Positions 25,150 through 45,350 of a stretch of 64,000 nt of DNA are shown here, one piece after another. The DNA is taken from NCBI RefSeq assembly GCF_004684245.1, contig NZ_CP038452.1, positions 916,796-980,795 on the forward strand, read 5' to 3'. The notes below the pieces were generated by a model. It saw only the letters and a list, made by a program, of their open reading frames with translations. It was not told the DNA's origin and did no database searches. Source of the stretch: Thermus caldilimi. Its GTDB lineage: Bacteria; Deinococcota; Deinococci; Deinococcales; Thermaceae. Position 1 is the first letter of the stretch. Each line of letters begins with the position of its first letter. The translations under genes were made by a program, and so were the position numbers.

Positions 25150-25159
25150 TTTTGTTTGT

Positions 25160-26066: not shown

Positions 26067-26091
26067 GACTTCCCAGCTGGACTTACCTGAT

Positions 26092-26819: not shown

Positions 26820-27186
26820 GTCTACCTCCGAAGACGGACCGGGCTGCTTCCAGAGCCAGGGGGCCTTGGTGCAGGACCATGTGGGCCATCCGGGCCTTTC
26901 CCGACCAGACCTCCAGGCCGAAGGCTTGCTGCTGGGGGTCAAAAAAGGCCACCAGGGCGTCACCCCGGGCAGGAGGGAGGGGAAAGTCCCTCTCCTCCTC
27001 GTAGGTCACCCAGTAGCGGTACACCCCGTCGGGCTCCAGGTAAAGGAGGCGGTTGCCCACCCGAGCGACCGGAACAAAGGTGTCTTCGTAGGGGCAGAGG
27101 AACAAGGGGACTCCTTCGGGGGCTTCACCAAGGTTTTCGTAAACACCCTGGGGACGAGGAGAGTGCCCGTAAAAGATGAGCTTCAT
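26800..27186 (-). CDS. Hypothetical protein
   Basis: This 128-residue protein starts MKLIFYGHSPRPQGVYENLG after a GAGGAGG site, and its ATG overlaps the stop of the annealing-protein gene. It is mostly beta-stranded (FVPVARVGNRLLYLEPDGVY; ARGDALVAFFDPQQQAFGLE). No motif recognised. Tight coupling with the Rad52-like and SWIM genes suggests a recombination accessory role. Confidence 0.55.
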   Translation of the reverse strand: MKLIFYGHSPRPQGVYENLGEAPEGVPLFLCPYEDTFVPVARVGNRLLYLEPDGVYRYWVTYEEERDFPLPPARGDALVAFFDPQQQAFGLEVWSGKARMAHMVLHQGPLALEAARSVFGGRREPDAQ

Positions 27187-27692
27187 GGTTCCTCCTCAAA
27201 GGATGCGTCCTCCTCTTCTTCGTTTTCCTCCAGAAGGAGCCGTTTGAGTTCCTTTAGAGCCTTTTCCGTGGGTTGCCCATCTTTGAGGGGAACCCAGACT
27301 TTTTCCAGTTCATAGAGGTAGCGGCCCACTCCGAACTTGACTGCGGCTCGTTTGAGGGCATCAGAAAAGGCGGATTTGAGGGAATCGCCTTCTCCCACGT
27401 CCTCCTTAGTGACACCCAGGACTGTGAGGCGGCAACGGACTTCCACCAGGCGTTCCCGTCGTTCTCCCCGTTCGGAGCGCACGGTATAGGTGTGGTCTGC
27501 GAGAATTTCGTAGGCGTCGTGCCACCCCTCGGGACCCACCGCCTCGTCCAGGCGGTCCACTACGGTGCGGGCGTCCACGTAGGCCACCACGAGGCCGCGG
27601 GTCCGGTCCTTGTTGGTAGACTGGACCTTCCAGCCCACCTTGCTTGGGGGAAATGGAGCCTTGAGGATCCGGGAAACCTCTTGCCAGTTCAT
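27183..27692 (-). CDS. Rad52/Rad22-type single-strand annealing protein
   Basis: This 169-residue protein shows the core Rad52 fold signature: YVDARTVVDRLDEAVGPEGW at residues 38-57, a central beta part with VRCRLTVLGVTKEDVG, then GDSLKSAFSDALKRAAVKFG and VGRYLYEL. The C-terminus is an acidic tail (EENEEEEDASFEEE) like that of phage annealing proteins and SSBs. It would anneal complementary strands produced by the PD-(D/E)XK exonuclease in the same operon. A GC hairpin and extended Shine-Dalgarno lie directly upstream. Confidence 0.8.
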   Translation of the reverse strand: MNWQEVSRILKAPFPPSKVGWKVQSTNKDRTRGLVVAYVDARTVVDRLDEAVGPEGWHDAYEILADHTYTVRSERGERRERLVEVRCRLTVLGVTKEDVGEGDSLKSAFSDALKRAAVKFGVGRYLYELEKVWVPLKDGQPTEKALKELKRLLLEENEEEEDASFEEEP

Positions 27693-27742
27693 CTTCCCTC
27701 CTTTCGCCTTTCAGACTGGGGCGGGGGTTTATCCCCCGCCCC
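27693..27742 (-). promoter_or_regulatory. Leader module: GC hairpin plus extended Shine-Dalgarno, Rad52-like gene
   Basis: GGGGCGGGGG pairs with CCCCCGCCCC across five bases (27718-27742) and is followed by AGTCTGAAAGGCGAAAGGAG and the ATG. Confidence 0.65.
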
Positions 27743-27747
27743 GCCCC

Positions 27748-28288: not shown

Positions 28289-28395
28289 CTTCCCACCTCC
28301 CTTCTCATGAAAGCTCTCATCTTTACCCTCCACAGGAGAGACGATGAGAGGTAAATTCTCATCGTAGAGAGTGCCCTTAGAAAGCCATCTGTTCT

Positions 28396-28685
28396 CGGTT
28401 ATCCGGGAAGGAACCCACTACTGACCGAGATTGACTCTATGGTGAAGGATGAAAAGATGAGATACCCTCTCATCCTTCACCATGATTTGCGATGAGAAAC
28501 GGACTGAGATCATGAGGTGAAGGATGGTGAAGGATGAGAGCCTCTCATCCTTCACCCGAGAACGCCGTGTTTAAGGGCGTTTTTGCCACGGTGAAGGATG
28601 AGAGGGGGGTTTTCCCTATTCTCATAAAAAGGACCAATACTTCCATTTCAGGTAGCCACCATTAGCGATGGAGAAAAGTTGAGCG
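28396..28685 (+). repeat. Left arm of a ~290-bp inverted repeat with iterons
   Basis: It contains copies of GGTGAAGGATGAGAG or close variants at 28441, 28467 (inverted), 28516, 28526, 28542 (inverted) and 28590. Reading forward, the arm matches the reverse complement of 31049-31340 over nearly its whole length, including TTATCC-GGAAGGAACCC at one end and GAAAAGTTGAGCG at the other. It holds no convincing ORF. Confidence 0.8.
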
Positions 28686-28704
28686 CACTATTATCAAAGT
28701 GGAC

Positions 28705-28731
28705 AGGCCCCCTCTGGTCACGAGGGGGCCT
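28705..28731 (-). terminator. Hairpin after the helicase gene
   Basis: AGGCCCCCTC pairs with GAGGGGGCCT across seven bases, just downstream of the helicase stop on the minus strand. There is only a weak T-rich tail. Confidence 0.55.
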
Positions 28732-28735
28732 GCGG

Positions 28736-30630
28736 TTACCAGTCCAGGGAGGCGATTTGGGCGAGGCCGGAGACGGCCTCGGTGGTTTCCCTGCCGTGGT
28801 AGCCGATGGAGGGGTGGTAGGGGAGGTGCTGGCCGGGGGTTTCGGTGAAGAAGCGGCTGGGGCGGACGGGGCCCCGCTCGCCCACCTGGTAGGTGGTGAG
28901 GTAGAGGTTTTCCTTAGCCCGGGTGAGGCCCACGTAGTGGAGCCTGCGTTCCTCCTCCAGCTGGGCGGGGTTCTGGGCGCTTCTCCAGGAGGGGAAGACG
29001 CCCTCCACTAGGCCCACCAGGAAGACGCTGTGGAACTCCAGGCCCTTGGAGGCGTGCAGGGTCATGAGCCTCACGCCCTGGGGCTTCTCCAGGTCCCCAT
29101 CTTCCATCTCCAGGAGTATGTCCTGGAGGAAGGTAGCCAGGTCCCCCTGGGGAGTGTGTTCGGCGAAGCCCCGCATGGCGTTCGCCACTTCCTCCGTGTT
29201 CATGTAGCGTTCGCTTGCGGCTTCCGTGTTCCCCTCGGCCCAGTCCAGGAGGACGGGCCAGAGGAACTCCCGCCACCGGCGAAGCCAGGCTTCGGTCTCC
29301 CCGGCCAGGGCCAAACCCCGGGCCTCGGCGATGCGCCGGGCATCCTCCACAGCCTGGAGGAGTTGCCGCCCCTCAGGCACGGGAAGGAGGAGCCTGGGGT
29401 CCTCGGCGGCCTTTTGGGCCTTCTTGGGGCCAAACCTGGGCACGGTGGCGGCGATGGCCTCCGCCAGGGCCAGGGTGTCCCCGGTGGCCGCCCGGAGGAA
29501 GTGGAGAAGGAGCTTGACCTCCCGGCGCTCCCAGAAGCCCACGCCTCCCACCACGGTGTAGGGGACGCGGAACCGGCGCAGGGCGGCCTCCAGGGGACGG
29601 GAGAGGGAGAGGGAGCGCATGAGGACGGCGATCTCCTCGGGGGGCACCCCGGAGGCGAGGGTCTGGGCGGCGGCCTCGGCCACGAAGAGGGCCTCGGCCT
29701 CCCGGGTTTCGGCGGTGACCTTGAGGGGGGGTCGCCGTCCCGGAGGGCGGTGAGGGGGAGGTCTTCCCGGTGGTGGTTCTGGCGGATGACCGCGGTGGCG
29801 GCGTCGGTGATGCCCCGGTGGGAGCGGTAGTTGAGGGGGAGCTTGTAGACCAGGGCGTGGGGGAAGTGGCGCTTGAACTCCAGGATGAGGCGGTAGTCGG
29901 CCCCGCGCCAGGAGTAGATGGCCTGGTTGGGGTCCCCCACGGCCATGAGGTTCTCTTCCCCGGTCAGGAGGAGCCTGACCAGTTCAAACTGGACCAGGTT
30001 GGTGTCCTGGTACTCGTCCACGGTGAGGAAGCGGCAGCGCTTTTGCCAGTCCCGCTGAAGGGAGGGGTCGGCCTTGAGGTCTTCCACGGCGGCCAGGAGG
30101 AGGTCGTCGAAGTCCAGGTAGCCCCGGGTTTCCTTCCACTCCTCGTAGCGTTCCCAGACCTGGGAGAGGTAGGGTTCAAAGTCGGCGTACTGGCTTGCGA
30201 GGGTTTCCCGGTCCCAGCGGGCGTTCTTGGCCCGGGAGATGGCCCCGTGGGCGGCCTTGGGGGTGAGGCGGTGGGGGGCTTGGAGGTCTTCCAGGAGGTT
30301 GCCGATGAGTTTGCGCGCGGTATCGGCGTCCAGGACCTTGAGGTCTTTGCGGCTTTGGCGGAGGACGGTAGCGGCGAGGCTGTGGAAGGTGGAGATCCAC
30401 AGGCGGCTGGCCTCGTCTTCGGGGAGCATGTGGGCGAGGCGTTCCCGCATTTCCCCCGCGGCCTTGCGGGTGAAGGTGACCAGGGCGATTTCCTCAGGGG
30501 AGAAGCCTTCCCTCACCAGGCGGGCGGCGCGGTGGGTGACGGTGCGGGTCTTGCCGCTGCCGGGTCCGGCGATGACCAGGGCGGGCCCGAAGGTGTGCCC
30601 CACCACCGCCTGCTGTTCGCTGTTGAGCAC
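28736..30630 (-). pseudogene. UvrD/Rep-family helicase, frameshifted at a G7 run
   Basis: From a GTG after GGAGGTGATGC the first frame carries LNSEQQAVVGHTFGPALVIA and Walker A GPGSGKTRT, then TFTRKAAGEMRERL, TVDEYQDTN (motif II), GDPNQAIYSWRGA and LNYRSH. The frame is lost at TALRDGDPP. The next frame supplies the rest: PPEEIAVLMR, RLMTLHASKGLEFHSVFLVG and EERRLHYVGLTRAKENL. One additional base in the 29725-29731 run of seven G restores a helicase of about 630 residues. UvrD/Rep helicases are 3'-5' SF1 motors. It sits between two iteron arrays and may serve element replication. Confidence 0.85.
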
Positions 30631-30670
30631 GCATCACCTCCTACTTCAACCATGGTAGTCAAAGCCACGC

Positions 30671-30699
30671 AAGAAGGGGGGATTAGCCCCCCCCTTCTT
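30671..30699. other. GC/AT hairpin upstream of the helicase
   Basis: AAGAAGGGGGG pairs with CCCCCCTTCTT across seven bases. It lies between the 84-residue gene and the helicase start and could attenuate or process the shared transcript. Confidence 0.5.
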
Positions 30700-30708
30700 G
30701 CCTGTGGT

Positions 30709-30729
30709 CAAGATACGGGCTTCGCCCGT
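30709..30729 (-). repeat. 21-bp hairpin repeat shared with 7140-7160
   Basis: The reverse complement of the 21 bp at 7140-7160 is repeated exactly here, including the ACGGGC stem with GAA loop. It follows the stop of the 84-residue gene. Confidence 0.6.
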
Positions 30730-30732
30730 GAC

Positions 30733-30987
30733 CTAGCGCCGCTTGCGGGGAGTGATCACGTCCTCCTCCTCTTCCTCGGCTTCGGCCTCCTCGTTAGGGG
30801 GGAGAAGGACCAGCTTGCCGTTGAGGGGGAGAGCGTCCAGGAGGACGGTGATCCCCTTCTCCGAGCGGAAGGCCCGGCCCACCTGGACCCAGTAGGTGCG
30901 GGTCTCCCCCTCGCTGTCCTCGTACTCCCGGGTGGTGAACGCCCGGAGCACTTCCCGCTCTGCCTGCTTGCCCTTGCCGTTCTTCAT
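30733..30987 (-). CDS. Small plasmid-type protein with acidic tail
   Basis: An 84-residue protein starting MKNGKGKQAEREVLRAFTTR. The centre reads TYWVQVGRAFRSEKGITVLL and DALPLNGKLVLL, a pattern seen in small uncharacterised plasmid and phage proteins. The C-terminal tail is acidic then basic (EEAEAEEEEEDVITPRKRR), as in some SSB-interacting proteins. It has the hairpin plus extended Shine-Dalgarno leader and shares the inverted-repeat-bounded segment with the helicase. Confidence 0.6.
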   Translation of the reverse strand: MKNGKGKQAEREVLRAFTTREYEDSEGETRTYWVQVGRAFRSEKGITVLLDALPLNGKLVLLPPNEEAEAEEEEEDVITPRKRR

Positions 30988-31034
30988 CCTTCACCTCCTT
31001 TCACCTCTCCGACCGGGACGGCGATGCCGTCCCG
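30988..31034 (-). promoter_or_regulatory. Leader module: GC hairpin plus extended Shine-Dalgarno, 84-residue gene
   Basis: CGGGACGGC pairs with GCCGTCCCG across three bases (31014-31034) and is followed by GTCGGAGAGGTGAAAGGAGG and the ATG. Confidence 0.65.
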
Positions 31035-31048
31035 TCTTGCTAAATCCA

Positions 31049-31340
31049 CGCTCAACTTTTCTTCAGCCGTGATGGTGGCTGCCCGAAATGGAAGTATTGG
31101 CCGTTTTTATGAGAATAGGCAAAAACGGCCTCTCATCCTTCACCCACGGTAGGAATGCCCTTTAGAAGGGCATTTCGTAGTGAAGGATGAGAGCCTCTCA
31201 TCCTTCACCATCCTTCACCTCATGGTTCCACCCCCTTTCCTATCGCAAAACCGGGTGAAGGATGAAAGGGCATCTCATTTTCTCATCCTTCACCGAAGAG
31301 TCAGTCTAGGATATCTGCGGGTTCCTTCCGGGATAACTTT
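31049..31340 (-). repeat. Right arm of the ~290-bp inverted repeat with iterons
   Basis: It carries GGTGAAGGATGAGAG-type copies at 31130, 31195 and 31209 (inverted), 31179 and 31254 (direct) and 31281 (inverted). It matches the left arm in reverse complement, including the internal small hairpin AATGCCC/GGGCATT at the equivalent place. No ORF was found in it. Confidence 0.8.
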
Positions 31341-31415
31341 GCTAACCCCCCTTCTGTGCGTTTTCTTCTTTCATGAGAATCGCCCCCTCATCTTTCCCTG
31401 TGTAGATGAGAGTTC

Positions 31416-32618
31416 TCATGATGCCACGATGGTGCGGATCCAGGGGGGAGGTGTGGGGGCGTGGGGTTGGAGGAGGACGGCGAGGAGGGGGACGGGTGTG
31501 GGGGAGGTGGGCCAGGGGGTGAGGCCGTCGGTGAGGGCGACGATGAGGTCGGGTGGGGGTTTATGGGCGAGGGCGGCGTGGATGCCGAGGGTGATGTCGG
31601 TGCCGCCGCCTCCGAGGAGGTTGATTTGTTCTTTGCGGAAGACCTTTTGGGCGGTGTGGACGGCGGCGTCCACGGTGTAGACCCTGACTTCTTTGACCCT
31701 TTGGAGGATGCCTTGGACTTCGGCGAGGGCCTGGCCGAGGAGTTCTTCGTCCATGGAGCCGGAGGTATCGATGACCACGGCCACCCGGGGTTTGAGGCCG
31801 TAGGTGCCTGGGAGGATCACGGGGTGGTAGGTGCTGGCCCGGCGGTGGGGGCGTGTGTAGGTGGCCCGCTGGCGGGCGGCGAGGTCGGCGAGGCTCTTGC
31901 GGAGGGTGTTGCGGAGGACGCTGCGCCAGTCCACCTTGGGGTTGAGGTAAGCTTCTGCCCAACGGCGCACCCCGGCGGGTACGGTGCCTCGTCCCTTGGC
32001 CTCGTAGTCCCGGATGGCTTGGGCGGTGGCCTGGCGGGCCACCTCCAGGTTGGCCCCTTCCACTCCTCCGGTGGAGGGAGAGGGGTTGCCCAGTTCCCAG
32101 TCCCCGGGATCCCCTCCTGCTCCTGTTCCGTGTTCTTGTGGGGTTTTGGGCCTTTTCTCAGGCGGGAAGCCCAGGAGCAGCTTCAGGTACTCCTCTGCCA
32201 GAAGCCCTGTGGGAAACCCGTACATTTCGGGGAAATGCCCGGCGTAGGGGTGATTTCCCCGGGGAAGGTCCACCCCTGCGGTCTGGGCGTCGTCGTTGAT
32301 TTCCAGGTCCAGGGCGATTTTGGAGAGGTAGGGGTGGCGCTGGTGGAGGTTTTCTCCCCGGGGTCCCGGGTGTTCCCGGAGGAGGTGGTGGACCTCGTGC
32401 CAGAGGAGGCCCACCACCTGGGTGTCGGTGAGGGCATCCAGGAAGCAGGGATTGTAGTAGAGGCGGGCGTGCCGGTCGACGGCCATAGTTTGGAGGCGGT
32501 CGGTTTCCACGAGGGTGAGGAGGTAGACGATGGGGTAGAGGTAGGGGAACCGGGCCGCAAGGGCGGCCCTTGCGGCCCGGAGGCGTTCCCCGTGGGGTGT
32601 GGTGGGGTTGATGTACAT
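31416..32618 (-). CDS. VWA-like metallopeptidase (DUF2201 type)
   Basis: This 400-residue protein starts MYINPTTPHGERLRAARAAL after GGAGGTGACC. The N-terminal half has LLWHEVHHLLREH, a zinc-peptidase-like HExxH motif, plus EINDDAQTAG. The C-terminal half is a von Willebrand A domain with the MIDAS signature DTSGSMDEE and a later DGLTPWP loop. This pairing is the DUF2201 family, usually encoded next to a MoxR AAA+ ATPase, as here. Such pairs act as metal-dependent chaperones or remodelling machines. What it acts on here is unknown. Confidence 0.85.
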   Translation of the reverse strand: MYINPTTPHGERLRAARAALAARFPYLYPIVYLLTLVETDRLQTMAVDRHARLYYNPCFLDALTDTQVVGLLWHEVHHLLREHPGPRGENLHQRHPYLSKIALDLEINDDAQTAGVDLPRGNHPYAGHFPEMYGFPTGLLAEEYLKLLLGFPPEKRPKTPQEHGTGAGGDPGDWELGNPSPSTGGVEGANLEVARQATAQAIRDYEAKGRGTVPAGVRRWAEAYLNPKVDWRSVLRNTLRKSLADLAARQRATYTRPHRRASTYHPVILPGTYGLKPRVAVVIDTSGSMDEELLGQALAEVQGILQRVKEVRVYTVDAAVHTAQKVFRKEQINLLGGGGTDITLGIHAALAHKPPPDLIVALTDGLTPWPTSPTPVPLLAVLLQPHAPTPPPWIRTIVAS

Positions 32619-32620
32619 GG

Positions 32621-33730: not shown

Positions 33731-33731
33731 T

Positions 33732-33875: not shown

Positions 33876-33876
33876 G

Positions 33877-34941: not shown

Positions 34942-35946
34942 TTATCCCCTCTTGCTGTCAACCACGATGCCATCGGGGTCTTCTTTTCTGAGAGCCTGAT
35001 CGATGGCGGCGGTGAAGTCGGGGTAAACTTTGTAGACGCCTTTAGCGAGTACGGCGATGCCTACCCGAAACACGGGGCGGGTGAGGCGTTTGCCGGTTTC
35101 CAGGTCCGGGTATCCCAGGAGGGGTCGGAGGACGGGGTTTTCCAGGACATCCCGCAGGTCTTCCCCGTGGACGGTGGCTACGATGTCCACACCCCTCCGC
35201 CTGGCGGTTTCCAGCACCTCCACGTCCCCGTGGTAGCCGATCTCGTCCACCACGATGGTTTCGGGGGAGTGGTTGGTGATGGCCTGCAAGATGATGTTGG
35301 CCTGCTTCCGGGGGTCTCCCACCATCATCCTCCGAGCAGACCCGATGATGGGGTGAGGGACTGCACCGTCCCCTGCAATCTCGTTGGAGGTGTCCACGAT
35401 AACCAGGCGGGCCTTCAGGGTTTTGGCTTTTTCCTCTACGATTCCCCGCAGAAGCGTGGTCTTCCCTACTCCGGGAGGACCAATGATGAGGGTTGAGTCC
35501 CTGCCTCCTATCCAGTCCCGCAAAGGGGTGGCTATGCCTGGAATAGCCCTGCCGAACCGGATGGTGAAACCGATAGGCAGGTCATCCGCATCCCGGATTA
35601 CCGAGATACGGTGAAGTGTCCCGGGTATCCCCGCCCGCCCGTTAGACCGGAAACTGCCCACTTTGGCATAGAAGTAGTCAATATCCCCTTGGGACACCTC
35701 TCGGTGCAGCTTCTGCTCTCCCCGCACCCGCACTACCAGGGGCCGCCCCAAGTCCATCGCCACCTCTTCCACGCCCTCAATGTCTTCCTGCAGAATGGCC
35801 CGTATCCAGGCGGGAAAGTAGGAAAGAAGCCGCTCCGTCCCTATCCGTTCAGCTTCCTCTATGTGCCGAAGGGTCTCCTCTTTGGGGCCCCCCACCCCCA
35901 AATGAACCGCTTTGGGGCCCCCCACCCCCAAATGAACCTCCTTCAA
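34942..35946 (-). CDS. SpoIIIAA/Ycf45-type ATPase, possible VirB11 substitute
   Basis: This 334-residue ATPase has Walker A IIGPPGVGKTTLLRGI near residue 148, DTSNEI, Walker B ETIVVDEIG and VDIVATVHGEDLRD, as in SpoIIIAA/Ycf45 proteins, distant relatives of secretion ATPases. The TTG start overlaps the previous stop (TTGA) after AAGGAGG. Two tandem copies of the VHLGVGGPK repeat form the extreme N-terminus. It is the last gene of the T4SS operon, and no ordinary VirB11 is present, so a motor role in secretion is plausible but unproved. Confidence 0.8.
   Translation of the reverse strand: MKEVHLGVGGPKAVHLGVGGPKEETLRHIEEAERIGTERLLSYFPAWIRAILQEDIEGVEEVAMDLGRPLVVRVRGEQKLHREVSQGDIDYFYAKVGSFRSNGRAGIPGTLHRISVIRDADDLPIGFTIRFGRAIPGIATPLRDWIGGRDSTLIIGPPGVGKTTLLRGIVEEKAKTLKARLVIVDTSNEIAGDGAVPHPIIGSARRMMVGDPRKQANIILQAITNHSPETIVVDEIGYHGDVEVLETARRRGVDIVATVHGEDLRDVLENPVLRPLLGYPDLETGKRLTRPVFRVGIAVLAKGVYKVYPDFTAAIDQALRKEDPDGIVVDSKRG
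35881..35938 (-). repeat. Two tandem palindromic repeats inside the ATPase gene
   Basis: Two identical 28-bp units, 30 bp apart, encode the peptide VHLGVGGPK twice in frame at the ATPase N-terminus. TTTGGGG and CCCCAAA form a short stem within each unit. The unit matches those at 11854 and 36252. Confidence 0.8.
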
Positions 35947-36683
35947 GCCTTACCTCCTTGCATCAAACGGGGCCCTGAACGGACCACCCACCGCCCACCC
36001 TCCTTTTCCACCAAACCTTTCTCTTCAAGGGCCTTCAACCGCTTGTAAACCGCTGCTTTACTCACTCCAAAGATCTCCACTAGCTCCTTCGCCGTCCGGG
36101 GAGTTTGCAACACCCTTAGGTAGTCTTCGTGGGAACCCTTGGATTGCCGAAATGACCCCGTTTCCTCTTCGTTTACCTCTGCTCTCCCTTCCGCACTTTC
36201 AGGCTCTTGCGAGTTTACCGAAACATCAAGGAGAAAACTTTTGGTTTCCGCTTTGGGGCCCCCTACCCCCAAATGAACCTCCCCTTGGGAAACCCAGGTG
36301 ACAGCGTTTTTTTGTCCTTCAAGGAGTTCCCCAAGCACCTTGGCAATGACAAAAGTGGACACGGGAACGAACAAGGAAGAAAGGAAGACCTCAACTTCCG
36401 CCACTCCTATTCCTGCTCGCCGCATGGAGAAGTAGTTGCCTACCCACACCAGGCCAAGGGCTACCACCGCCCCCCACGATGCCCATCGCGATCCCCGAAG
36501 GAGAGAGTTGGAAAGCAACGACAGCAGGAAGGCGCTCATCTCCAAGGCCGCCGCCAGACCCACAGCAAACCATCCAGGAAGGTTTCCCAGGGTGAGCCTG
36601 TACCACTCGCTCAGGTGTCCCGTGGACATCACCAGGGCAAAGGCGTAGGACACCACCAAAAGCGTGGCTAAAAACCCCCTCAC
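35943..36683 (-). CDS. Membrane protein with C-terminal winged helix
   Basis: This protein of about 246 residues starts at a GTG overlapping the transglycosylase stop (VRGFLATLLVVSYAFALVMS). Four to five transmembrane segments lie in residues 1-135. A linker carries a third VHLGVGGPK repeat (GEVHLGVGGPKAETKS). The C-terminal 75 residues are a winged helix (TPRTAKELVEIFGVSKAAVY, KRLKALEEKGLVEKEGGRWV). It would tether a DNA-binding domain to the membrane beside the conjugation machine. This is an uncommon architecture. Confidence 0.7.
   Translation of the reverse strand: MRGFLATLLVVSYAFALVMSTGHLSEWYRLTLGNLPGWFAVGLAAALEMSAFLLSLLSNSLLRGSRWASWGAVVALGLVWVGNYFSMRRAGIGVAEVEVFLSSLFVPVSTFVIAKVLGELLEGQKNAVTWVSQGEVHLGVGGPKAETKSFLLDVSVNSQEPESAEGRAEVNEEETGSFRQSKGSHEDYLRVLQTPRTAKELVEIFGVSKAAVYKRLKALEEKGLVEKEGGRWVVRSGPRLMQGGKA
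36252..36279 (-). repeat. Palindromic repeat inside the membrane-wHTH gene
   Basis: The unit differs at one base from those at 35881 and 35911 and encodes EVHLGVGGPKA in frame in the linker between the membrane and winged-helix parts. Confidence 0.8.
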
Positions 36684-37138
36684 ATCACCCCTCCTCTCCA
36701 ACGCCAGTAAACCCGCAAAACCCGCTCCACATAGCGCACCGTGGAGGCGGGGATCCGCCCCGAGCGCACCGCCCCCAGCCCCGCGTTGTAGGCGGCCAGG
36801 GCCAGCCGCCAGTCCCGGGTGGCTAGCCAAAGCTCCCGCAGGTGCTTGGCCGTGGCCCAGAGCGCCCAGTCGGGGTCAGTCCTCCACTCCGGGGGGGCTC
36901 CCCCGGTGGTCCGGTGCCAGGTGCCGGGCATGAACTGCCCCAGGCCCACCTCCCCCGCCCGGCCCACCGCCTGGGGGCAGTAGCCGCTCTCCACCCAGAC
37001 CACCGCCGCCACCAGGTAGGGGTCCACCCCCCAGGCCAGGGCGTGCCGCCAGGTGAGGTGCCAGAGGTCCTGAGGTACATACCTACAGGCCAAAGCGGGA
37101 AACAGTAACCCTAGGAAAATAACCCATCCCCTTTTCAT
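36680..37138 (-). CDS. VirB1-like lytic transglycosylase
   Basis: This 152-residue protein has a signal peptide (MKRGWVIFLGLLFPALACRY) and an SLT domain. The catalytic glutamate lies in AAVVWVESGYCPQAVGRAGE, followed by VGLGQFMPGTW and LALAAYNAGLGAV. It would open peptidoglycan for the secretion channel. It overlaps both neighbours by GTGA-type junctions in the T4SS operon. Confidence 0.85.
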   Translation of the reverse strand: MKRGWVIFLGLLFPALACRYVPQDLWHLTWRHALAWGVDPYLVAAVVWVESGYCPQAVGRAGEVGLGQFMPGTWHRTTGGAPPEWRTDPDWALWATAKHLRELWLATRDWRLALAAYNAGLGAVRSGRIPASTVRYVERVLRVYWRWRGGVM

Positions 37139-37368
37139 TCCCCAGGTTTACCTGTGGTCGGTTCTCCCGAGGTTGCCTCGGTCAACTTCTTGAACTCCCC
37201 CACGTAGGCTAGCTCCTCCAGGGTTTCCAGGTGAGTAAACCACCTTTCCCACAGAAGGGGAACACCCCAAGCCAACAGGATGGCGTATGGGGTGTACCAG
37301 AGATTGAGAAAGAACACCAGGGGCACCTCTGCCCAAAGGAGTACCCTGGCCCAAAGGGGAAACTTCAT
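37135..37368 (-). CDS. Small two-pass membrane protein
   Basis: A 77-residue protein starting MKFPLWARVLLWAEVPLVFF after GGGAGGTGGGCG. Two hydrophobic helices occupy residues 8-45 and a soluble tail follows (LETLEELAYVGEFKKLTEAT). Its position in the T4SS operon suggests a channel accessory. It is not clearly VirB3, for which a better candidate exists at 44964-45350. Confidence 0.6.
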   Translation of the reverse strand: MKFPLWARVLLWAEVPLVFFLNLWYTPYAILLAWGVPLLWERWFTHLETLEELAYVGEFKKLTEATSGEPTTGKPGE

Positions 37369-37925
37369 CGCCCACCTCCCAAGATGCCCAATCGCCGCAT
37401 CACGTGAAGCCTCATGGCCACCTCGAGGTCGTACCTGACCTCCCTGCCTGCCTGCATAAGGGCTAACCCGTAGTCCCGCCACAAACGGGCTTCATCGGGA
37501 GTCATCTCCCGCGTCCTACCCTCCAGATCAGCAATTCCAGCCACCAAAGGCCCTATCACACCTTTCCTCCCATCCACCACCACAAACGACCCCTCTATCT
37601 TCAGGGGCCAGGGGTGAACCTGGTACAGCTTCCCCCCTAACCCGCTGAACACCAGAAAGTAACTCCCCGGATCCCTTGAGGCTTCCAAAGAACCCACCAA
37701 GTAAACCCCCCCTTTTCCCTCCCGCAACCGCCTCCACACCGCCTCCATCAGGGGACGCTCCCGAAACACGGGGGCCACCAAAATAACCTCCCTCCCCCTC
37801 TCCACAAAGGAAAGAAACGCCTGCCATTCCCATCCAGACGCCTCACTCAAACAACCAGTCCAGCCCAGAGTCCCCAGAACGAGGAGAACGACTCCCCTGG
37901 GTCCCAGAAACCTCTGGAGAAACAC
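37365..37925 (-). CDS. Degenerate PLD-like lipoprotein
   Basis: This protein of about 186 residues starts at a GTG after AGGAAAG. The N-terminus ends in LVLGTLGWTGC, a lipobox-like site. The body resembles half a phospholipase-D nuclease: ILVAPVFRERPLMEAVWRRL and then PLKIEGSFVVVDGRKGVIGP, which aligns with the HxKxxxxDG...G motif but has Leu in place of His. It is probably an envelope-anchored, non-catalytic relative of Nuc-type proteins found near conjugation genes. It overlaps the VirD4 gene by 83 bp. Confidence 0.6.
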   Translation of the reverse strand: MFLQRFLGPRGVVLLVLGTLGWTGCLSEASGWEWQAFLSFVERGREVILVAPVFRERPLMEAVWRRLREGKGGVYLVGSLEASRDPGSYFLVFSGLGGKLYQVHPWPLKIEGSFVVVDGRKGVIGPLVAGIADLEGRTREMTPDEARLWRDYGLALMQAGREVRYDLEVAMRLHVMRRLGILGGGR

Positions 37926-40311
37926 CTTTCCTGTTCTCCCTTTCCGCTTTATCGCCTTTGTCCCCACTGCCCTCGCCCTTAGCCTTTTCCACCACCATTT
38001 CGGCACCTTTTGCGCTTTCGCCTTCTGACTGGCTATCCCACAGGTATTCTACCACAGCAGGCAGTTTCACACTCTTTATTCCCTTTCTTTGGGTGTTCTT
38101 GAGAGGCATTAGTTCCCTCACCCTTGGGGCCTCGGGGCCGAAAATTTCCTTGAAAGCTCCCTCGGGGATGGTAAGGGTAGCTTCTTCAAAGTAGGCCAAG
38201 GGAAGGTCTACCTGTTCCCCCAAGCCCTGTATGTGTTCGCGATGCTTCTTTACCCAGTCCACAAGCTTCCATGCCAAACCTAGGCGCTCCAATCCCCTTA
38301 CCGTTTCCACCGGAAGAACTTCTAACCCTTTGGGCGTGATGGCAATGGCCTTCTCGTTCTTCTCAAAACGCACCCACCCTTGCCTCTTCCACTCTGGGAA
38401 GAAGGGAGGTGTACCCAGGGGTTCCGGTAAGGTTTCCCGGTTCACCTGTACCTTGGTCAACTCCAGGGTGTGAGGGTTCCTTCCCAGGTGTACCCGGTAC
38501 TCTCCGTTTACCACAGCTTCCGCCCACTCTCGGAAGCGGACCAAAGGAGTGGTTTCTTCTTCGGAATCCACAGGGAAGAGGTGTTTTTCCACCTCTGCCA
38601 TGACTTCATCGGGTTGTTCCCGCAAAGCCCCTAAGTGTTTCCCATAAGGGTAAAGAGGATTGCGGTGGCCTCCTATTTGCGGTTCATCCACCCGGGGCAA
38701 CCACACTTTCACCGGGTAGATTCCTGGACCAAAGACGAGTCCTTGGCCCTCCGTAAACTCGTTCATCTCCATAGGAGCCAGGAAAGGACGGGCCACTTCC
38801 TTCTCTGCCACCTGAAGCCGTGGATCAAAGATAGGTATGGCTCCCTTCCACCCCTGAGCTACCGTGCGCTCGTAAGCGGTGGTCTGCCCCAGGAACTCAG
38901 ACAGGTAAATGCGGTCCTCAATGGATATGGCGTAGGGAAAGATTACCCAGTGCCCCAGGTTGTTCAAGATGGCCTTGAACTCCGGCTCCCCGTAATCCTT
39001 GATCCCCTGGTGCAGGTTTTGCAAAGTGAGAATGTAGGCGATACGCCTCTCCCGCACCGTCGCCAGCATCACGTCCATCCCCGGCAGATAGCCCAGGTTC
39101 GCCCACTCGTCCAGGTAAATGATCACAGGCACCGGGCACCGCCCCCCATGGTTCCGAGCTTCCCGCAAGAGCGTGCGGTTGATATACCGCACAATCATCT
39201 GCAAGAAAACCTGGCCCACCCCTTCCATCAGCTGGTCCTGCGGTATGCCAATGTAGAAAAAGGTGGGCTCCCTAGCAATCCGGGCAACATCGATTTCCTC
39301 TTCCTCCCCTCCCCTCCCCGTGGCCCTCTCCAAGCGAGGGTCATCAAAGGGCTGTAGCTTCCCCAGGAGACCCGCAACTAGCCCCGTCTTTTGGTTAGGG
39401 GTGAGGTCCAGGAAAAATCCGATCTCTTCCTTGGCCCGGTCATCCCCCAGGCTTTCCACAAACTCCTCCACCGCCTCCGGTCCTCGCTTCAGCAAACGCA
39501 CCAAGCGCCCCAAAGAGCCGGAACCTACGGTGGCTTCCAGCCGCAACAGCGTGGAGAGGATGGCCCGTTCCTGATCCTTGTAGTAGGTCATGGCGGTAGC
39601 CCTTTGGTCGACGGGAATAATCCCCTCGGCGATCTCCATAGCCACCAAAGGGTCCGCGGCATCACGAAGCAGGGGAAGTTTCTTGGAGCCCAGGGTGTAA
39701 GGCAGGAAAAGCTCTATCCGGTGCCCGGCGTTTTCAAAGAGGGGGATAAACCTGGGAAACCCCTGGGTGTTGGGCCACTTCAAGTCCACTACCACCACGC
39801 TGTTGCCGTCTAAGGCGTCCATCACCAGATTGGGTTCGTAAAACCGGGAAGTTTTCCCCGCCCCCGGCTGACCCAGGACCAGGGTGTGGGCAAAGCGGGT
39901 CCTGCTGGGGTACCGCAGGGGCCTACCCTCGTACAGGCCCAGCCACCCACTCCTTTCTCTGCCGTGAAGATACCGCCCCAGGTCCGCTTTCTGGGCATAA
40001 CGGGAGGTGCCAGGAGCTTTCCTGGGTTTTTCGCTCATCTTAGCCCTTGCCAGGGCAGCCAAGGGCACCAAAGGGAGAAGGTAGTAAGGGAGGTTCTCGT
40101 CAAACCCCGAAACCACCCTTTCCTGATACCACCGATTGCATGCCCGGTCCCCCAAGCACCGAACAAGGCTCACTCCTCGCGCATTGAGTTCCTGTGTGGC
40201 CTGGATCACCCCCCGGACAAAGGTCCAAATCCCGTATCCCATCCCCAAAAGGATGGCGAGAACGCTTAGGAGAAACACCAAAAGCCACCTTCTCCGAGCC
40301 GCTTCGTCCAT
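37843..40311 (-). CDS. virD4: VirD4/TraG-type coupling ATPase
   Basis: This 822-residue protein has two N-terminal transmembrane segments (residues 10-30 and 75-90), Walker A LVLGQPGAGKTSRFYEPNLV near residue 143, Walker B PVPVIIYLDEWANLGYLPG and the coupling-protein box TLQNLHQGIKDYGE. The C-terminal 250 residues form an additional domain with a Ser/Gly-rich tail. Coupling proteins deliver the DNA-relaxase complex to the channel. The gene lies downstream of the VirB6-like gene in the T4SS operon. Confidence 0.9.
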   Translation of the reverse strand: MDEAARRRWLLVFLLSVLAILLGMGYGIWTFVRGVIQATQELNARGVSLVRCLGDRACNRWYQERVVSGFDENLPYYLLPLVPLAALARAKMSEKPRKAPGTSRYAQKADLGRYLHGRERSGWLGLYEGRPLRYPSRTRFAHTLVLGQPGAGKTSRFYEPNLVMDALDGNSVVVVDLKWPNTQGFPRFIPLFENAGHRIELFLPYTLGSKKLPLLRDAADPLVAMEIAEGIIPVDQRATAMTYYKDQERAILSTLLRLEATVGSGSLGRLVRLLKRGPEAVEEFVESLGDDRAKEEIGFFLDLTPNQKTGLVAGLLGKLQPFDDPRLERATGRGGEEEEIDVARIAREPTFFYIGIPQDQLMEGVGQVFLQMIVRYINRTLLREARNHGGRCPVPVIIYLDEWANLGYLPGMDVMLATVRERRIAYILTLQNLHQGIKDYGEPEFKAILNNLGHWVIFPYAISIEDRIYLSEFLGQTTAYERTVAQGWKGAIPIFDPRLQVAEKEVARPFLAPMEMNEFTEGQGLVFGPGIYPVKVWLPRVDEPQIGGHRNPLYPYGKHLGALREQPDEVMAEVEKHLFPVDSEEETTPLVRFREWAEAVVNGEYRVHLGRNPHTLELTKVQVNRETLPEPLGTPPFFPEWKRQGWVRFEKNEKAIAITPKGLEVLPVETVRGLERLGLAWKLVDWVKKHREHIQGLGEQVDLPLAYFEEATLTIPEGAFKEIFGPEAPRVRELMPLKNTQRKGIKSVKLPAVVEYLWDSQSEGESAKGAEMVVEKAKGEGSGDKGDKAERENRKGVSPEVSGTQGSRSPRSGDSGLDWLFE

Positions 40312-40315
40312 GGCG

Positions 40316-41476
40316 CTAAATCCTCACCGCAGAAGCTACCCGGTTCAAAGTGATGGAAACGCCAATCAGTATCCCCAGGATGGTCAGAAGGTACATGAAG
40401 ATGCCCACAACGCCGGTTACAATCCAGCTGGCAAGGGAAGTCAGCATGTTGTTCAGCGGGGCCAACACGGTATTCATGGCGTTGCCCACCGCTTGTGCCG
40501 CACCGGAAACTGCCCCGGCAAACCACTCCCTGATGTCATCCCACTTCTTTTGAAGCGTGTTCTGCGCAACCTGGTTTTCCACCTGGTTGCCGTAGTTTTC
40601 CACCTCACTCCGTAGCTGGGCAATAGCCTGCCGTTGCTGTTGCCGCACAGATTCCGCCTCTGCCATGATCTGTTGCAGCTGTTGCTGCATTTGCGCCACG
40701 CTTGTGTGCTGTAAGAGGCGAAGAGATGCCCCAAGGACCACAGGAGCAACGATGCCCAGCAATAACCCCGAAAGGTAAAGGGAAAGGACGGCCCTGAAAA
40801 CGGCTGGTACACCCAGAGCCATTGCGGTAGCGGCCAGCGGGAGAAGCACGATGGCGAGGTAGACCATGACCCCGGAAAGCATCATCGCTCCCACATAGGG
40901 AGCCGTAAGCAGAAGGGCCCCCTGCCCCATTTTGCTTACACTCGTCTTGACCGCTTGGTATGCTCCGGCTCCTCCTATACCCCGAGTGGTGCCCCCTAGC
41001 TCCCCCTTGGCTACCGTGCTTGCCCTCACAGCCGCTCGCGCCCCCGCCAGTCCCCCGCGAAAAACATTCAGCGCAAAGCCTCCCACAGCAAAGCTTCCTA
41101 TGGCAACCAAAGCATTGCGGACTGTGTCCCGAATGTCCAGCAGGGCTTGCCCCACACTGTCTGCAACCGGCCCCAAAGCCCTCTGGGCAGCCACCCGGTG
41201 CCCGTTTCGCCAAGCGTCGTAGAGGGAACTCTTAAAGGCGGCCCCTTCTGGACGTGTAGCCAGATTGAACAGCAATAGGGCCACCATGGCCCTTACGAAA
41301 ACGGCTTGCGCCGCCATCCGGTTGCCCCACGCGAACAGCGCCAAGGCCCACACGAAGGCAAAAACAATTGCCGCCCCTGCCGCTCCCGTGAACCACCCCT
41401 GAAGCCCCATTCCTTGTACGGTAGCGATAAACTGGCCGATGAAGTAGCTGTAGTCAGGAATACCCGGAAGGTTCAT
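40316..41476 (-). CDS. virB6: VirB6/TrbL-type polytopic membrane protein
   Basis: This 386-residue protein has six or more hydrophobic segments: FTGAAGAAIVFAFVWALALF, VFVRAMVALLLFNLA, a long central run and a C-terminal pair WIVTGVVGIFMYLLTILGIL. A Gln-rich coiled-coil loop (AQMQQQLQQIMAEAESVRQQ) lies between. Size, topology and place between VirB5- and VirD4-like genes fit the VirB6 inner-membrane channel subunit. Confidence 0.75.
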   Translation of the reverse strand: MNLPGIPDYSYFIGQFIATVQGMGLQGWFTGAAGAAIVFAFVWALALFAWGNRMAAQAVFVRAMVALLLFNLATRPEGAAFKSSLYDAWRNGHRVAAQRALGPVADSVGQALLDIRDTVRNALVAIGSFAVGGFALNVFRGGLAGARAAVRASTVAKGELGGTTRGIGGAGAYQAVKTSVSKMGQGALLLTAPYVGAMMLSGVMVYLAIVLLPLAATAMALGVPAVFRAVLSLYLSGLLLGIVAPVVLGASLRLLQHTSVAQMQQQLQQIMAEAESVRQQQRQAIAQLRSEVENYGNQVENQVAQNTLQKKWDDIREWFAGAVSGAAQAVGNAMNTVLAPLNNMLTSLASWIVTGVVGIFMYLLTILGILIGVSITLNRVASAVRI

Positions 41477-41486
41477 CCTTCACCCC

Positions 41487-42548
41487 CTACCAAGAGAGAC
41501 TTCCCCCGTCGGGGAGGTTATCCGCCATGTCCACCAACGACTGAAAACGCTCTCCCAAAACCCTCAGTTCGTTTTCCGCTTCCCTCGCTCCCTCCTCAAC
41601 GGCTACCGCATACGCCTGTAGCTCGTACTCGGCTTCGCCCGAATCCTTTTCCGCAAGAGCGGCGATCTCGTCGTACAACCCCACCAAGGACCCATTGGTG
41701 TAAAGCTGCGCCTGAACCTGCTTTTGCAGGAAGTCAACCAAGATGGGACTCGTGGCCGCCTGGAGCCTCAACAGGTACGAGATCCCCTCTACGGTAGCCT
41801 CCATAACTTCTCTCGTTGATGCCGCCGTTTTTGCCTTATCCACCAGCTGATCCGCCACACCTGCTCGCACCACCCCTCCCGTGGTCTGCTCCGCCTCCTT
41901 TGGTGTGACCACTTTTGTTACCAAGCTAGTTAGCTCCCCTATCGTCTCGTTGCTCTTTTTCAGTTCCTCCGAAAGGTTGGACGTGGCCTGTATGGCCGCC
42001 ACACGCTTCCCGATGTCCTTGACCTCCTCCAGGTAGTCCCCCAAGAAACCCCCCGCGATAGTGGGGTTGCTCTGGGCTTGTTGGACCAAAAGGTCAGGGG
42101 GGCTCCCTGTGGGATACCGTCCCGTTAGGGGTATATGCCTCACCTTTGCATCCTCTAGCATCGCCCTGGCAATCGCTCTTCGCAAAAGCTGCGGTGCCCG
42201 CCTTACCTGCTGAGCGGCATCGGCGATTTGGTCCACAAACTGGTTCACCCCCGGTCCTATGTACCACCCCAAGGACTGCATAAAGCCCTCAATGACACCT
42301 ATGCCTGCTTGGATGGCAAAGTCCTGCACATAGTCCTGGAAGTTCTCCGCTATCCAGCGGAAGTTGCCGTACACGCTCCTCAGGGTGCAAATCCAGTCCC
42401 AGTTACCGCCAAAGTTGAAGTCATAGGTAGCGCTGCAAGCGCTATTGAGCACTCCCCCAAGGGTGTCCCAGAACCCGTTGGCTTTTGCTGGAAAAGCTCC
42501 TGGGACAAAGGTCAGGACTGCTCCCACAAGAATGGCTTTCGCTCTCAT
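41487..42548 (-). CDS. VirB5/TrbJ-like exported protein
   Basis: This 353-residue protein has a signal peptide (MRAKAILVGAVLTFVPGAFPAKA in the first 23 residues) and a largely helical body with coiled-coil stretches (KKSNETIGELTSLVTKVV; ATSPILVDFLQKQVQAQLYT). Helical exported proteins directly before VirB6 are usually VirB5/TrbJ pilus-tip proteins. The start overlaps the VirB4 stop. Identification rests on position, signal and helicity. Confidence 0.65.
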   Translation of the reverse strand: MRAKAILVGAVLTFVPGAFPAKANGFWDTLGGVLNSACSATYDFNFGGNWDWICTLRSVYGNFRWIAENFQDYVQDFAIQAGIGVIEGFMQSLGWYIGPGVNQFVDQIADAAQQVRRAPQLLRRAIARAMLEDAKVRHIPLTGRYPTGSPPDLLVQQAQSNPTIAGGFLGDYLEEVKDIGKRVAAIQATSNLSEELKKSNETIGELTSLVTKVVTPKEAEQTTGGVVRAGVADQLVDKAKTAASTREVMEATVEGISYLLRLQAATSPILVDFLQKQVQAQLYTNGSLVGLYDEIAALAEKDSGEAEYELQAYAVAVEEGAREAENELRVLGERFQSLVDMADNLPDGGSLSW

Positions 42549-45004
42549 GCTTCCCCCCGAGCTAGGGCTAGAACGGCATCTTTCGGATTCCCGTAGCGCT
42601 TGACAGCCTCTTCTCGCCTCCTTTTGTCGTTATTGTCTGTTGTGTAGCTCCAGTATTCCAGGGGAGAAACCCTTACTCTCAACACGCCCCCCTCGAGGCC
42701 CGTTCCCGTCCTGAGGACTACCAGCACATCCGAATACTGCCCCTTTTTGTATTCCAGCTTCTTGTAAACCTCTTCAATGGCTCGCTCAGGTATGCCAAAA
42801 AGCTTCATGATGTGTTCCTCCTGTTCCGAGGCCCGGAGAAGGTAGTGATAGTACGTGTTGCTCACGATCCCTTGGGCATACCCCGAGGTAAAGTCCTTCA
42901 GTTCCTGCGTGATGGCGTAAATCGCCGCTCCGAAGGTCCGGCTCCGCCGGTAAAGGTTCTCCACCACCCCCGCCCCGTACTTGTTCTTCAAAAGCGCCCA
43001 CGCCTCGTCTAAAACCACCAGCTTGGGCCCCTTCTTCTTGGTAATCTTTTTCCAAATGAGGTCCGAAATGAGGAGGAGGCCCACCTGAGTCAAGGGGCCG
43101 TCGTTTCCCAGCCTGCCCGTTTCAAAGTAGACCACCTGGTTGTCCAGGTTCACCTGGGAAGGGCGGTCAATGAGACGCCCGTACACGGAGTCTCCCGTCC
43201 AGTTGTCCAGGGCCAGGGCAAGGCGCTGGGCGATTTCCTTCTCCGAGGGGCCCATGGGTTTGCCGTTCACCTGTTCCATGGTGCGGAGCTTGCGCACCAC
43301 CGTGGAGAGGGTAAAGGGTTCCAGGTACTTCTGGCCCCTTTCGTCCTCCTGCTGCTGCATCAGGTAGGTCTGCTCCACGGCGGCCATCCAGATGGCCTCC
43401 TCTACCATGGCCTCCTGTTCGTTCAAGGGAGGAGGTATCATGGCCCGGAAAATAGCCCGAATCAGGTCTCTCTTTTCTTCCGAGGGAAAAAGCTCCCCTT
43501 CGGACAGCTCAAAGGGGTTGACGCTGGTGCCCTCTACGGGGTCCATGACCACCACGCTCCCTCCTAAAAGTTCCACCAGGAACGCGTAGTTGAAACCCCG
43601 GTCCACGATGATGACTTCCACCCCCCGGAGGGCCACCTGACTGATGAGGGACTGCACGAAAAAGCTCTTACCCGATCCGCTTCCCCCCACCACAATCCCG
43701 TGCTTGGCCGGGAATCGGTCAGAAAACAGGTCAATCTTTACTGGTACGCCCCCTGCTCCCTCATAGATAGCCATCGGCCTGTCCAAACCCCTCCAGGGGG
43801 ACCACGTGGGCATCAAGTCTGCGGCGTTGTCTTCCAACAAAAGGGTCTTGTAGTACGGCACCTTGCCCGAACCCGGCGATAGGCTCACCCACGCCTCAAA
43901 AAAGTCGGCCACAGGAATACCTCTAGCTCCCCCCACCTGAGCAAAACGCCCCCTCGCCGCCGGTATCCTTTTTTTCAAATCTCGCAAACTCTTTTCGAGA
44001 AGGACCAGGTGCAGGCTAGTTTCAAAAAAGTGGCGGCTTTCCCCCTGGGCTCTCTTTAGTGCCTCTTCGTAGTTTTGTGCTTTGACAAACACCGAAGGGT
44101 CCACCACCGTGTCCGAGCGGGCCATGGCGCTAGCCGTGCGGTGCCCCGTGCTTACCTTACGGACTTCCCTCTCCCAAGGCTTGTGGTACCAATCCGCTAT
44201 CAGGTAGAACTCCCCTTCGGTGCGCAAAAGCGCGTCCGCGATCCCAGGCCACGTGGAATCGGGGGAGGAAGCCATGGCTACACCGCCCACCCACCGCTCT
44301 CCCAAGCGGATGTAAAAGGGGTAAGCGTTGTCCACCTCCGTTTGCGCCACCTGTCGGGTCAACCCCCGGTAGTCAGGCGTCCCGTAAGGGGCCCTGGCCC
44401 TCGGAGGCTCGTACTCCGGGGTGGGCTTGTCTGGGTTGAACCACCGCCACAAGGTCTCAAAGAGACGCTTGTCGTCCGCCGGTACAGCCTTGATCCCCGC
44501 CCCTGCCAGCTGGACCACCACCTCTTCCCGGTACGCCAAGGCGAGGTCTTTGGCCTCCTGGTACTCCCGCTCGGAAAACATTCCCCGTATCCTCCCTCGA
44601 GGAGGGGTCAGGGACAAAAACCCGTAGTACCGCCAGGTGCGCAAAACCCCGGCTTCCGCGAGTTTACGGAAGAGTTTGACTTTTTCTCCAAAAAATAGCT
44701 TACCTAAGGGGTGAACAAAAGTGGCCTCTTCCTTTTCTATTTCTTGCAGGTAGCCCTCTGCTTCTTGCCTGGCTTCCACGAGTAGGCGGAACCGTTCTCC
44801 CTCAGGCACCGTGAGCCGTAAAAAGGTGGCAAAGCGCTCAGCGAAGTCCAGGAGATCCCGATCCGAAAAGAGGAGCATGACCGGTAGCTGAAGTTCAAAC
44901 CCCACCTCCAGCCTTCCCTCTCGGGTAAAAAAGATGCCGTCCTCCAACTCCCAATGGGGAAGCTCATCGGCCAAGGGCAAGGTCTTCGTACCCAGAACGC
45001 TCAT
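42545..45004 (-). CDS. virB4: VirB4/TraC-type secretion ATPase
   Basis: This 819-residue protein starts MSVLGTKTLPLADELPHWEL after GGAGGTGGTCA. It has the VirB4 CagE-type N-terminal domain, Walker A VGGSGSGKSFFVQSLISQVA near residue 440, Walker B PKLVVLDEAWALLKN and a following RRSRTFGAAIYAITQE segment with the arginine-rich sensor. It energises pilus assembly and substrate transfer. The coding region sits in canonical order between VirB3- and VirB5-like genes. Confidence 0.9.
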   Translation of the reverse strand: MSVLGTKTLPLADELPHWELEDGIFFTREGRLEVGFELQLPVMLLFSDRDLLDFAERFATFLRLTVPEGERFRLLVEARQEAEGYLQEIEKEEATFVHPLGKLFFGEKVKLFRKLAEAGVLRTWRYYGFLSLTPPRGRIRGMFSEREYQEAKDLALAYREEVVVQLAGAGIKAVPADDKRLFETLWRWFNPDKPTPEYEPPRARAPYGTPDYRGLTRQVAQTEVDNAYPFYIRLGERWVGGVAMASSPDSTWPGIADALLRTEGEFYLIADWYHKPWEREVRKVSTGHRTASAMARSDTVVDPSVFVKAQNYEEALKRAQGESRHFFETSLHLVLLEKSLRDLKKRIPAARGRFAQVGGARGIPVADFFEAWVSLSPGSGKVPYYKTLLLEDNAADLMPTWSPWRGLDRPMAIYEGAGGVPVKIDLFSDRFPAKHGIVVGGSGSGKSFFVQSLISQVALRGVEVIIVDRGFNYAFLVELLGGSVVVMDPVEGTSVNPFELSEGELFPSEEKRDLIRAIFRAMIPPPLNEQEAMVEEAIWMAAVEQTYLMQQQEDERGQKYLEPFTLSTVVRKLRTMEQVNGKPMGPSEKEIAQRLALALDNWTGDSVYGRLIDRPSQVNLDNQVVYFETGRLGNDGPLTQVGLLLISDLIWKKITKKKGPKLVVLDEAWALLKNKYGAGVVENLYRRSRTFGAAIYAITQELKDFTSGYAQGIVSNTYYHYLLRASEQEEHIMKLFGIPERAIEEVYKKLEYKKGQYSDVLVVLRTGTGLEGGVLRVRVSPLEYWSYTTDNNDKRRREEAVKRYGNPKDAVLALARGEA

Positions 45005-45350
45005 TGACCACCTCCGGTTCGGCAAGCCCAGCCCGAGAAAGTGTCAACGGAACCTCCCTCTGCGGCTCCGAAGGATAGTAGACATCCGCCTTCGTAATGA
45101 ACCGAATAAACCGCCACCCCACCCCATACCCGTAGTTGTCATTCACCCAAAGGCTCACCTTGTAAACCAGCACCACCGCAGCAATGGAAACCAGTCCTCG
45201 TATCCAAATGTTCGCCACCAAAATCTGTACCACCTGAAGGGCCAAAAATCCCCCAAACAAAGAGGCCATCACCACCCCCAGGGGAAGCCCAAACAGGGTC
45301 AGGCTCGTGTCCAAGCGCGGTACCTTACGCCTGATCCGCTCCCTCTCCAC
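44964..45350 (-). CDS. VirB3-like membrane protein
   Basis: This protein of about 128 residues starts at a GTG (VERERIRRKVPRLDTSLTLF) after GGAGGGGGGTAAG. It has two adjacent hydrophobic segments (LGVVMASLFGGFLALQVVQI; GLVSIAAVVLVYKVSLWVN) and a soluble C-terminal tail, and its 3' end overlaps virB4. Size, topology and place between VirB2 and VirB4 are typical of VirB3. Confidence 0.7.
   Translation of the reverse strand: MERERIRRKVPRLDTSLTLFGLPLGVVMASLFGGFLALQVVQILVANIWIRGLVSIAAVVLVYKVSLWVNDNYGYGVGWRFIRFITKADVYYPSEPQREVPLTLSRAGLAEPEVVNERSGYEDLALGR

Follow-up and report, generated by a model that had tools for sequence, protein, structure and literature searches.

Paired inverted iteron arrays in a Thermus integrative and conjugative element and its relatives

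Why should a helicase gene of Thermus caldilimi be enclosed by two facing inverted copies of a repeat-rich intergenic sequence? The window analyzed here, a stretch of 64,000 nucleotides (C1:916796-980795), sits within an integrated 72.7-kb integrative and conjugative element (ICE). A sequence-only reading of this window had described two imperfect inverted arms carrying iterons on either side of a UvrD/Rep-like helicase gene and proposed an origin of replication with its motor, or an invertible or transposing cassette. We compared the arms with each other, with their own genome and with related Thermus ICEs.

The arms are real. Their local alignment scored 299, while none of 300 dinucleotide shuffles exceeded 30 (blastn E 9e-71), and they are inverted copies with 81-82% identity:

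28398..28685, minus strand: left arm, inverted copy of the right arm, inner end at 28685, occupying most of the intergenic region 28290-28735
31049..31337, plus strand: right arm, inner end at 31049, within the intergenic region 30988-31415

Self-comparison of the 64-kb window revealed no other inverted repeat that reaches 40 bp and has a loop below 12 kb. Neither the arms nor the motif array has a further copy in the 2.45-Mb genome outside the 28398-31337 locus; in this genome, then, they are not a repeat dispersed over unrelated loci, a pattern that would have refuted the earlier proposal. Exact arm and palindrome searches of other Thermaceae and of IMG/VR gave matches in the own genome only. 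The AT content of the arms is 49-52%, compared to 38% for the window, and no intrinsic terminators were found in them.

Each arm contains six copies of an iteron core, GTGAAGGATG, in both orientations and all in register between the arms. The arrays are thus as first described, with the count of "five or six" to be read as six in each arm. Iteron columns are identical between the arms at 60/60 positions, compared to 175/227 (77%) of spacer columns (Fisher p 2e-6). Only two of the six sites per arm are tandem, the others being single or arranged as inverted pairs. The small hairpin noticed earlier at the same place in each arm is present (palindrome 1), together with a larger palindrome and an outer hairpin:

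28442..28600: left-arm iteron cores, six GTGAAGGATG, at 28442 (+), 28471 (-), 28517 (+), 28527 (+), 28546 (-) and 28591 (+)
31134..31293: right-arm iteron cores, in register with the left arm, at 31134 (-), 31180 (+), 31199 (-), 31209 (-), 31255 (+) and 31284 (-)
28561..28581: palindrome 1, left arm, AACGCC...GGCGTT; the right arm has T-A in place of one of its C-G pairs
31154..31174: palindrome 1, right arm, AATGCCCTT TAG AAGGGCATT
28526..28556: palindrome 2, left arm, a 31-nt perfect inverted iteron pair
31179..31209: palindrome 2, right arm, counterpart of the left-arm 31-nt inverted iteron pair
28441..28481: outer hairpin, left arm, an iteron pair with an AT-rich loop
31254..31294: outer hairpin, right arm
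28679..28697: inner-end dyad TTGA-N11-TCAA, left arm, common to the arms of two other ICEs

The right-arm version of the dyad, at 31037-31055, has one mismatch. A degenerate form of the core, GTGAWRGATG, matches the window 15 times (0.2 expected), and 12 of these 15 matches lie in the arms. The three outside are at 23084, 30985 and 41474, of which at least 30985 (p84) and 41474 (p40316) are gene starts consisting of a Shine-Dalgarno sequence followed by ATG. The suspected likeness of the iteron to a ribosome binding site with a start codon therefore holds for the motif.

Orthologous ICE loci were found in 3 of 26 other Thermus genomes: T. scotoductus DSM 8553 (G017, via L100), T. brockianus YIM 77927 (G010, via L101) and a further Thermus (G001). 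With the present genome (G000), protein identities give the branching order ((G017,G001),G000),G010. The ICE sequence read for each of the four was scanned for inverted repeats of 40 bp or more with a loop below 12 kb. In every ICE this sequence contained a single comparable inverted pair and no second one, with inner ends facing:

G000 pair: 290 bp, 81% identity, loop 2.4 kb
G017 pair: 147 bp, 95% identity, loop 3.26 kb
G001 pair: at least 83 bp, 84% identity, loop 2.8 kb, truncated where a contig ends
G010 pair: 114-129 bp, 81-82% identity, loop 0.9-1.1 kb

What the pairs enclose varies. In G000 and G001 it is p84, a small gene, and the helicase gene; in G017 there are four genes, namely p84, the helicase gene and the following two small genes. 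The G010 pair encloses an unrelated open reading frame of 223 codons downstream of Rad52, which looks like an accessory gene, since a homologue with 87% identity is found on a T. thermophilus plasmid, while the p84-helicase operon of G010 has only short leaders and no arms. The arms are therefore not a module of a helicase with its own origin, and the link between iteron arrays and helicase that was originally suggested is not supported. Since p84-helicase keeps the same backbone position in 4/4 ICEs, with or without arms, transposition of the cassette as a unit is unsupported as well. It is likewise scarcely credible that the arms are terminal repeats of a transposon or dispersed copies of a miniature inverted-repeat transposable element. 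They are inverted and have defined ends, but there are no arms elsewhere in the genome, the content between them differs from element to element, and p84-helicase, unbracketed in T. brockianus, is a backbone operon syntenic in four ICEs and not a repeat-bounded unit absent from empty sites. Synteny has already largely refuted this explanation.

The GTGAWRGATG core is common to three of the four elements, as GTGAAGGATG in the window, GTGAAAGATG in G001 and GTGATAGATG in G017; the G010 arms have a 9-bp tandem GCGGTGGTT unit in its place, but in them too a repeat is followed by the small palindrome, then the large palindrome and another repeat. Inner ends of the G001 and G017 arms read TTGA-N11-TCAACTAYAAAA, and that of the window left arm TTGA-N11-TCAAC (the pattern search for the dyad included CTAYAAAA). 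A covariance model of the arms gave a weak match of 26 bits by which the T. brockianus pair was first flagged, and detected at 55 bits a third full-length G001 arm that was outside the training set, located between VirB11 and p33877, upstream of the latter (L081 6339-6431). In 50 Thermaceae genomes nothing above noise was found with the model beyond the known arms and this third G001 arm. Cousin plasmids with a type IV secretion system (T4SS), pTA69, p61, NEB1569, TTHNAR1 p3 and pMESIL02, yielded short matches only and no comparable long inverted pair. In agreement with the sequence-only reading, we found no described Thermus precedent for paired iteron arrays or for an element of this plan.

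Palindromes of the arms change in sequence between elements yet remain palindromic. When six arms of three elements are aligned, two hairpins stay in register and 92.7% of cells are paired; sliding the partners by 1-3 columns lowers this figure to 39-53%. Of the 23 hairpin pairs, 13 have changed on both sides. Because arms come in related pairs, this covariation corresponds to about three independent lineages; the G010 hairpin was left out of the count because it is off register by loop length in the ten-arm alignment. In a tree of arms, clustering is by element (support 0.83-0.996). Core identity within an element is 97% in G017, 86% in G001 (arms A and C), 80% in G000 and 80-83% in G010, and between elements 35-57%. 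The G017 and G001 arms align with each other at 78%, while the own pair in each of the two stands at 88-93%, and the G017 arms share a stretch of about 105 bp without a mismatch with flanks that differ. Taken together, the alignments indicate that arms within an element undergo concerted evolution, most simply by gene conversion between the two arms.

Homogenized arms imply recombination between them, and, with arms inverted and inner ends facing in 4/4 elements, arm-arm recombination could flip the bracketed genes. We nevertheless regard an invertible cassette as quite unlikely: there is no recombinase next to the arms, the bracketed genes have one orientation in 4/4 elements, and gene conversion alone suffices for homogenization. 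Tandem direct copies occur only without a gene between them (G001 C13:1-205, i.e. L082 1-205; G010 L080:14329-14610), and in G001 a more diverged arm (73%) is in direct orientation across MoxR-VWA. Since recombination is expected to delete anything between similar direct copies, inversion need not itself be functional.

We tentatively favor, at somewhat less than even odds, the explanation that a single multi-site cis element of this Thermus ICE family is present twice, as the two arms, and that it is bound by protein and controls DNA-processing genes. Each copy would span about 100-290 bp of intergenic DNA that is AT-richer and contains hairpins and five or six iterons, several as inverted pairs, and copies would be placed upstream of DNA-processing operons: p84-helicase, small genes with Rad52 and, in one element, a sliding-clamp-like gene. 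A candidate DNA-binding protein encoded by the ICE would cover the iterons and build a nucleoprotein complex, which might co-ordinate the expression, and perhaps the copy control, of these genes upon ICE excision or transfer. Direct copies around needed genes would be lost by recombination, so that inverted pairs or gene-free tandems would persist, kept alike by gene conversion. Judged from sequence, an element-specific operator or origin-type site is the best reading of the array. It is supported by the single inward-facing inverted pair in each of the four ICEs (G001 being broken by contig ends), by element-specific iterons, by iteron columns conserved above spacers, by palindromes kept despite sequence change and by arms that are more alike within than between elements.

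Several observations weigh against it. Three or four lineages underlie the conserved architecture. When a model is trained without the window, on G017 and G001, the window arms are its top hits within 221 kb, though with E values of only 0.01-0.03 and with the register reversed, and a sequence-only model finds nothing; for these reasons homology of the G000 arms to those of the other ICEs is likely but not firm. Two candidate iteron binders failed: the ParB gene is missing from the three other ICEs, and the helix-turn-helix (HTH) regulator at 7352-7957 fits three elements but is absent from arm-bearing T. brockianus. No iteron adjoins the S24 repressor gene, and no sigma-70-type promoter was found in the arms (0 promoter-like sites at 28250-31450, E. 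coli consensus only). Finally, all genes here run one way, so that any intergenic site would qualify as lying upstream of an operon.

Among known systems, centromere-like or global operator sites of the ParB/KorB type are also palindromic and spread across several intergenic regions of a conjugative element. In contrast to these, the sites here form clusters of six iterons, a ParB gene is present in one of the four ICEs (the present one), and no ParA was found. Constant architecture, element-specific iterons and homogenized arms are the pattern expected from co-evolution of a site with its binding protein, which could set incompatibility or specificity between elements. The paired arrays, conserved yet diverging rapidly, offer a concrete handle on replication, regulation and transfer of T4SS-type Thermus ICEs.

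An origin of the excised ICE, with the paired arrays as initiator sites and the inverted arms providing bidirectional loading or two linked origins, is plausible but in our view rather unlikely. Like iteron-controlled origins of the R6K, RK2 and P1 type, the arrays have 5-7 short repeats resembling protein-binding sites, in AT-richer DNA beside replication and recombination genes. Among the neighbors are genes for a helicase, Rad52 and a nuclease, joined in T. brockianus by clamp-like genes. In cousin T4SS plasmids, iteron arrays adjoin the gene of a conserved 327-aa protein, and a conserved flip of coding-strand GC3 skew in this region of four ICEs suggests replication strand asymmetry. However, iteron plasmids have phased direct repeats (PMC4980987), whereas the repeats here are mostly inverted or palindromic and the arrays are paired and inverted around variable genes. 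No direct helically phased repeats and no adjacent cognate Rep gene were found (no Rep family among the neighbors), and there is no DnaA-like box within one mismatch in the arms. The 327-aa protein is missing from the ICEs, elements have two to four arms whose location shifts, and the position of the skew flip is not that of the arms, the flip also occurring in G010, where they lie elsewhere.

The skew itself (window ~24000-34500; orthologues L079, L080 and L081) takes negative values in p33877-MoxR-VWA-helicase-(Rad52/PDDEXK) and positive ones in most T4SS genes despite the same gene direction. The contrast is strongest in the present ICE and that of T. brockianus and is a possible replication-strand signature. 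Separately, Thermus T4SS plasmids carry large direct-repeat arrays with a 10-bp or 33-bp period beside conserved ~327-aa and sigma70_r3 proteins (L206 21433-22499, L207 17220-18292, L202 30355-30944, L204 36899-37572). These arrays are likely origins of the plasmids, though not annotated so, and they illustrate a more usual type of array than that of the ICEs.

The arms may also act in the transferred strand during conjugation, folding into hairpins or an arm-arm stem that serves as a single-stranded promoter or primer, like Frpo/ssi. Single-strand DNA folding predicted for the arms is strong (z -2.8 to -7.8), with stable hairpins that covary, and nearby genes are typical of leading regions (Rad52, helicase, a small acidic protein; SSB/ArdC in cousin plasmids). 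Frpo likewise occurs in several copies in leading regions of conjugative plasmids, as multi-hairpin intergenic elements near early-function genes (PMC11541004). Here, in contrast, the promoter search that covered 28250-31450 gave no -35/-10 match and hence no stem promoter, half of the copies are reversed, with arms oppositely oriented to genes where a single-stranded promoter needs one orientation, and neither an origin of transfer nor a relaxase was identified among the proteins scanned. On balance such a role is unlikely.

Both strands of the arms are also predicted to fold well as RNA (z -4.1 to -7.2), and the location is intergenic, so that hairpins could act in an mRNA leader or intercistronic RNA through processing or stability. 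There is, however, no Rfam match, neither strand has an excess of changes that G-U pairing would tolerate (14 vs 15), and the arms occur in both orientations relative to transcription. We consider a transcribed element highly unlikely. An RNA duplex between the arms was rejected, G-U-compatible changes showing no excess.

It is, with a probability we would put as rather low, conceivable that the inward-facing array pair is a dedicated ICE machine required as a pair, its arms annealing or being bridged in the excised or single-stranded element. If so, its role would be to initiate replication, to prime synthesis of the second strand or to turn on the genes between the arms; iterons, hairpins and bracketed genes may then change while the paired inverted architecture stays.

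Genes between and beside the arms all run on the minus strand:

27183..27692, minus strand: Rad52/Rad22 annealing protein, a backbone gene
28736..30630, minus strand: UvrD/Rep-family helicase, N-terminal part 29732-30630, C-terminal part 28736-29683
30733..30987, minus strand: p84, a small protein conserved in four ICEs at 55-58% identity
31416..33730, minus strand: VWA-like (DUF2201) and MoxR-like AAA genes, backbone, outer neighbors of the right arm
34942..45025, minus strand: T4SS ATPases, VirB11-like (34942-35946), VirD4-like (37843-40311) and VirB4/TraG-like (42545-45025)

The helicase family had been named correctly, but a frameshift within a C7 run (~29724-29730) divides its reading frame in two, while three relatives have an intact single frame of 651-673 aa. 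The break (29690-29770) is an assembly error, a slippage site or the mark of a pseudogene. The protein called small and acidic, p84, is small, with its acidity mainly in the C-terminal third. Its structure model is predicted to be beta-rich (pLDDT 72) and has no match in the PDB with E <0.3. BLAST against plasmids gave helicase and VWA fragments only.

The host element is integrated at tRNA-Ala. A 27-bp identical repeat of the tRNA 3' end forms attL and attR, the left copy at C1:913658 and the right being the tRNA itself at C1:986334, adjoined by a tyrosine integrase gene. Upstream of the integrase there are an S24-type repressor, an HTH/excisionase-like gene and a PrimPol-helicase pair. VirB4- and VirB11-like secretion ATPases and a VirD4-like coupling protein are encoded, and other window products are a ParB-like protein, a PD-(D/E)XK nuclease and a SWIM protein. 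No relaxase families were found among the subset of open reading frames scanned with Pfam, though the ICE may encode a divergent one. Helicase and VirB11 profiles, run against IMG/VR, revealed no relatives of the ICE. ICETh1 and ICETh2 of T. thermophilus HB27 are likewise tRNA-integrated Thermus ICEs (PMC7693054, PMC7767461), and the PrimPol-helicase pair and tyrosine integrase/excisionase of the present ICE resemble those of ICETh2 (PMC7693054). The latter differs from both in being a 72.7-kb element with T4SS ATPases; the words "inverted repeat" are absent from the papers on ICETh1 and ICETh2 (PMC7693054, PMC7767461).

Near the left end of the ICE (window 1059-6798), an adenine-specific DNA methyltransferase gene with PglX/MAD2/type IIG similarity lies next to one for an OLD/AriA-like ATPase, and the two are probable defense cargo. 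The XRE/CI-like HTH protein at 7352-7957 has counterparts with 70-80% identity in two other ICEs and none in that of T. brockianus. A recurrent leader precedes ICE genes directly upstream of start codons, consisting of a GC-rich hairpin followed by GGTCTGA or AGACCAA and GGYGAAGGAGG. It is found in the window at 27690-27750 and 30990-31035 and in related ICE sequence at L080 9070-9120, 11325-11380, 12550-12600 and 15660-15720, L079 9977-10020 and L081 2340-2420.

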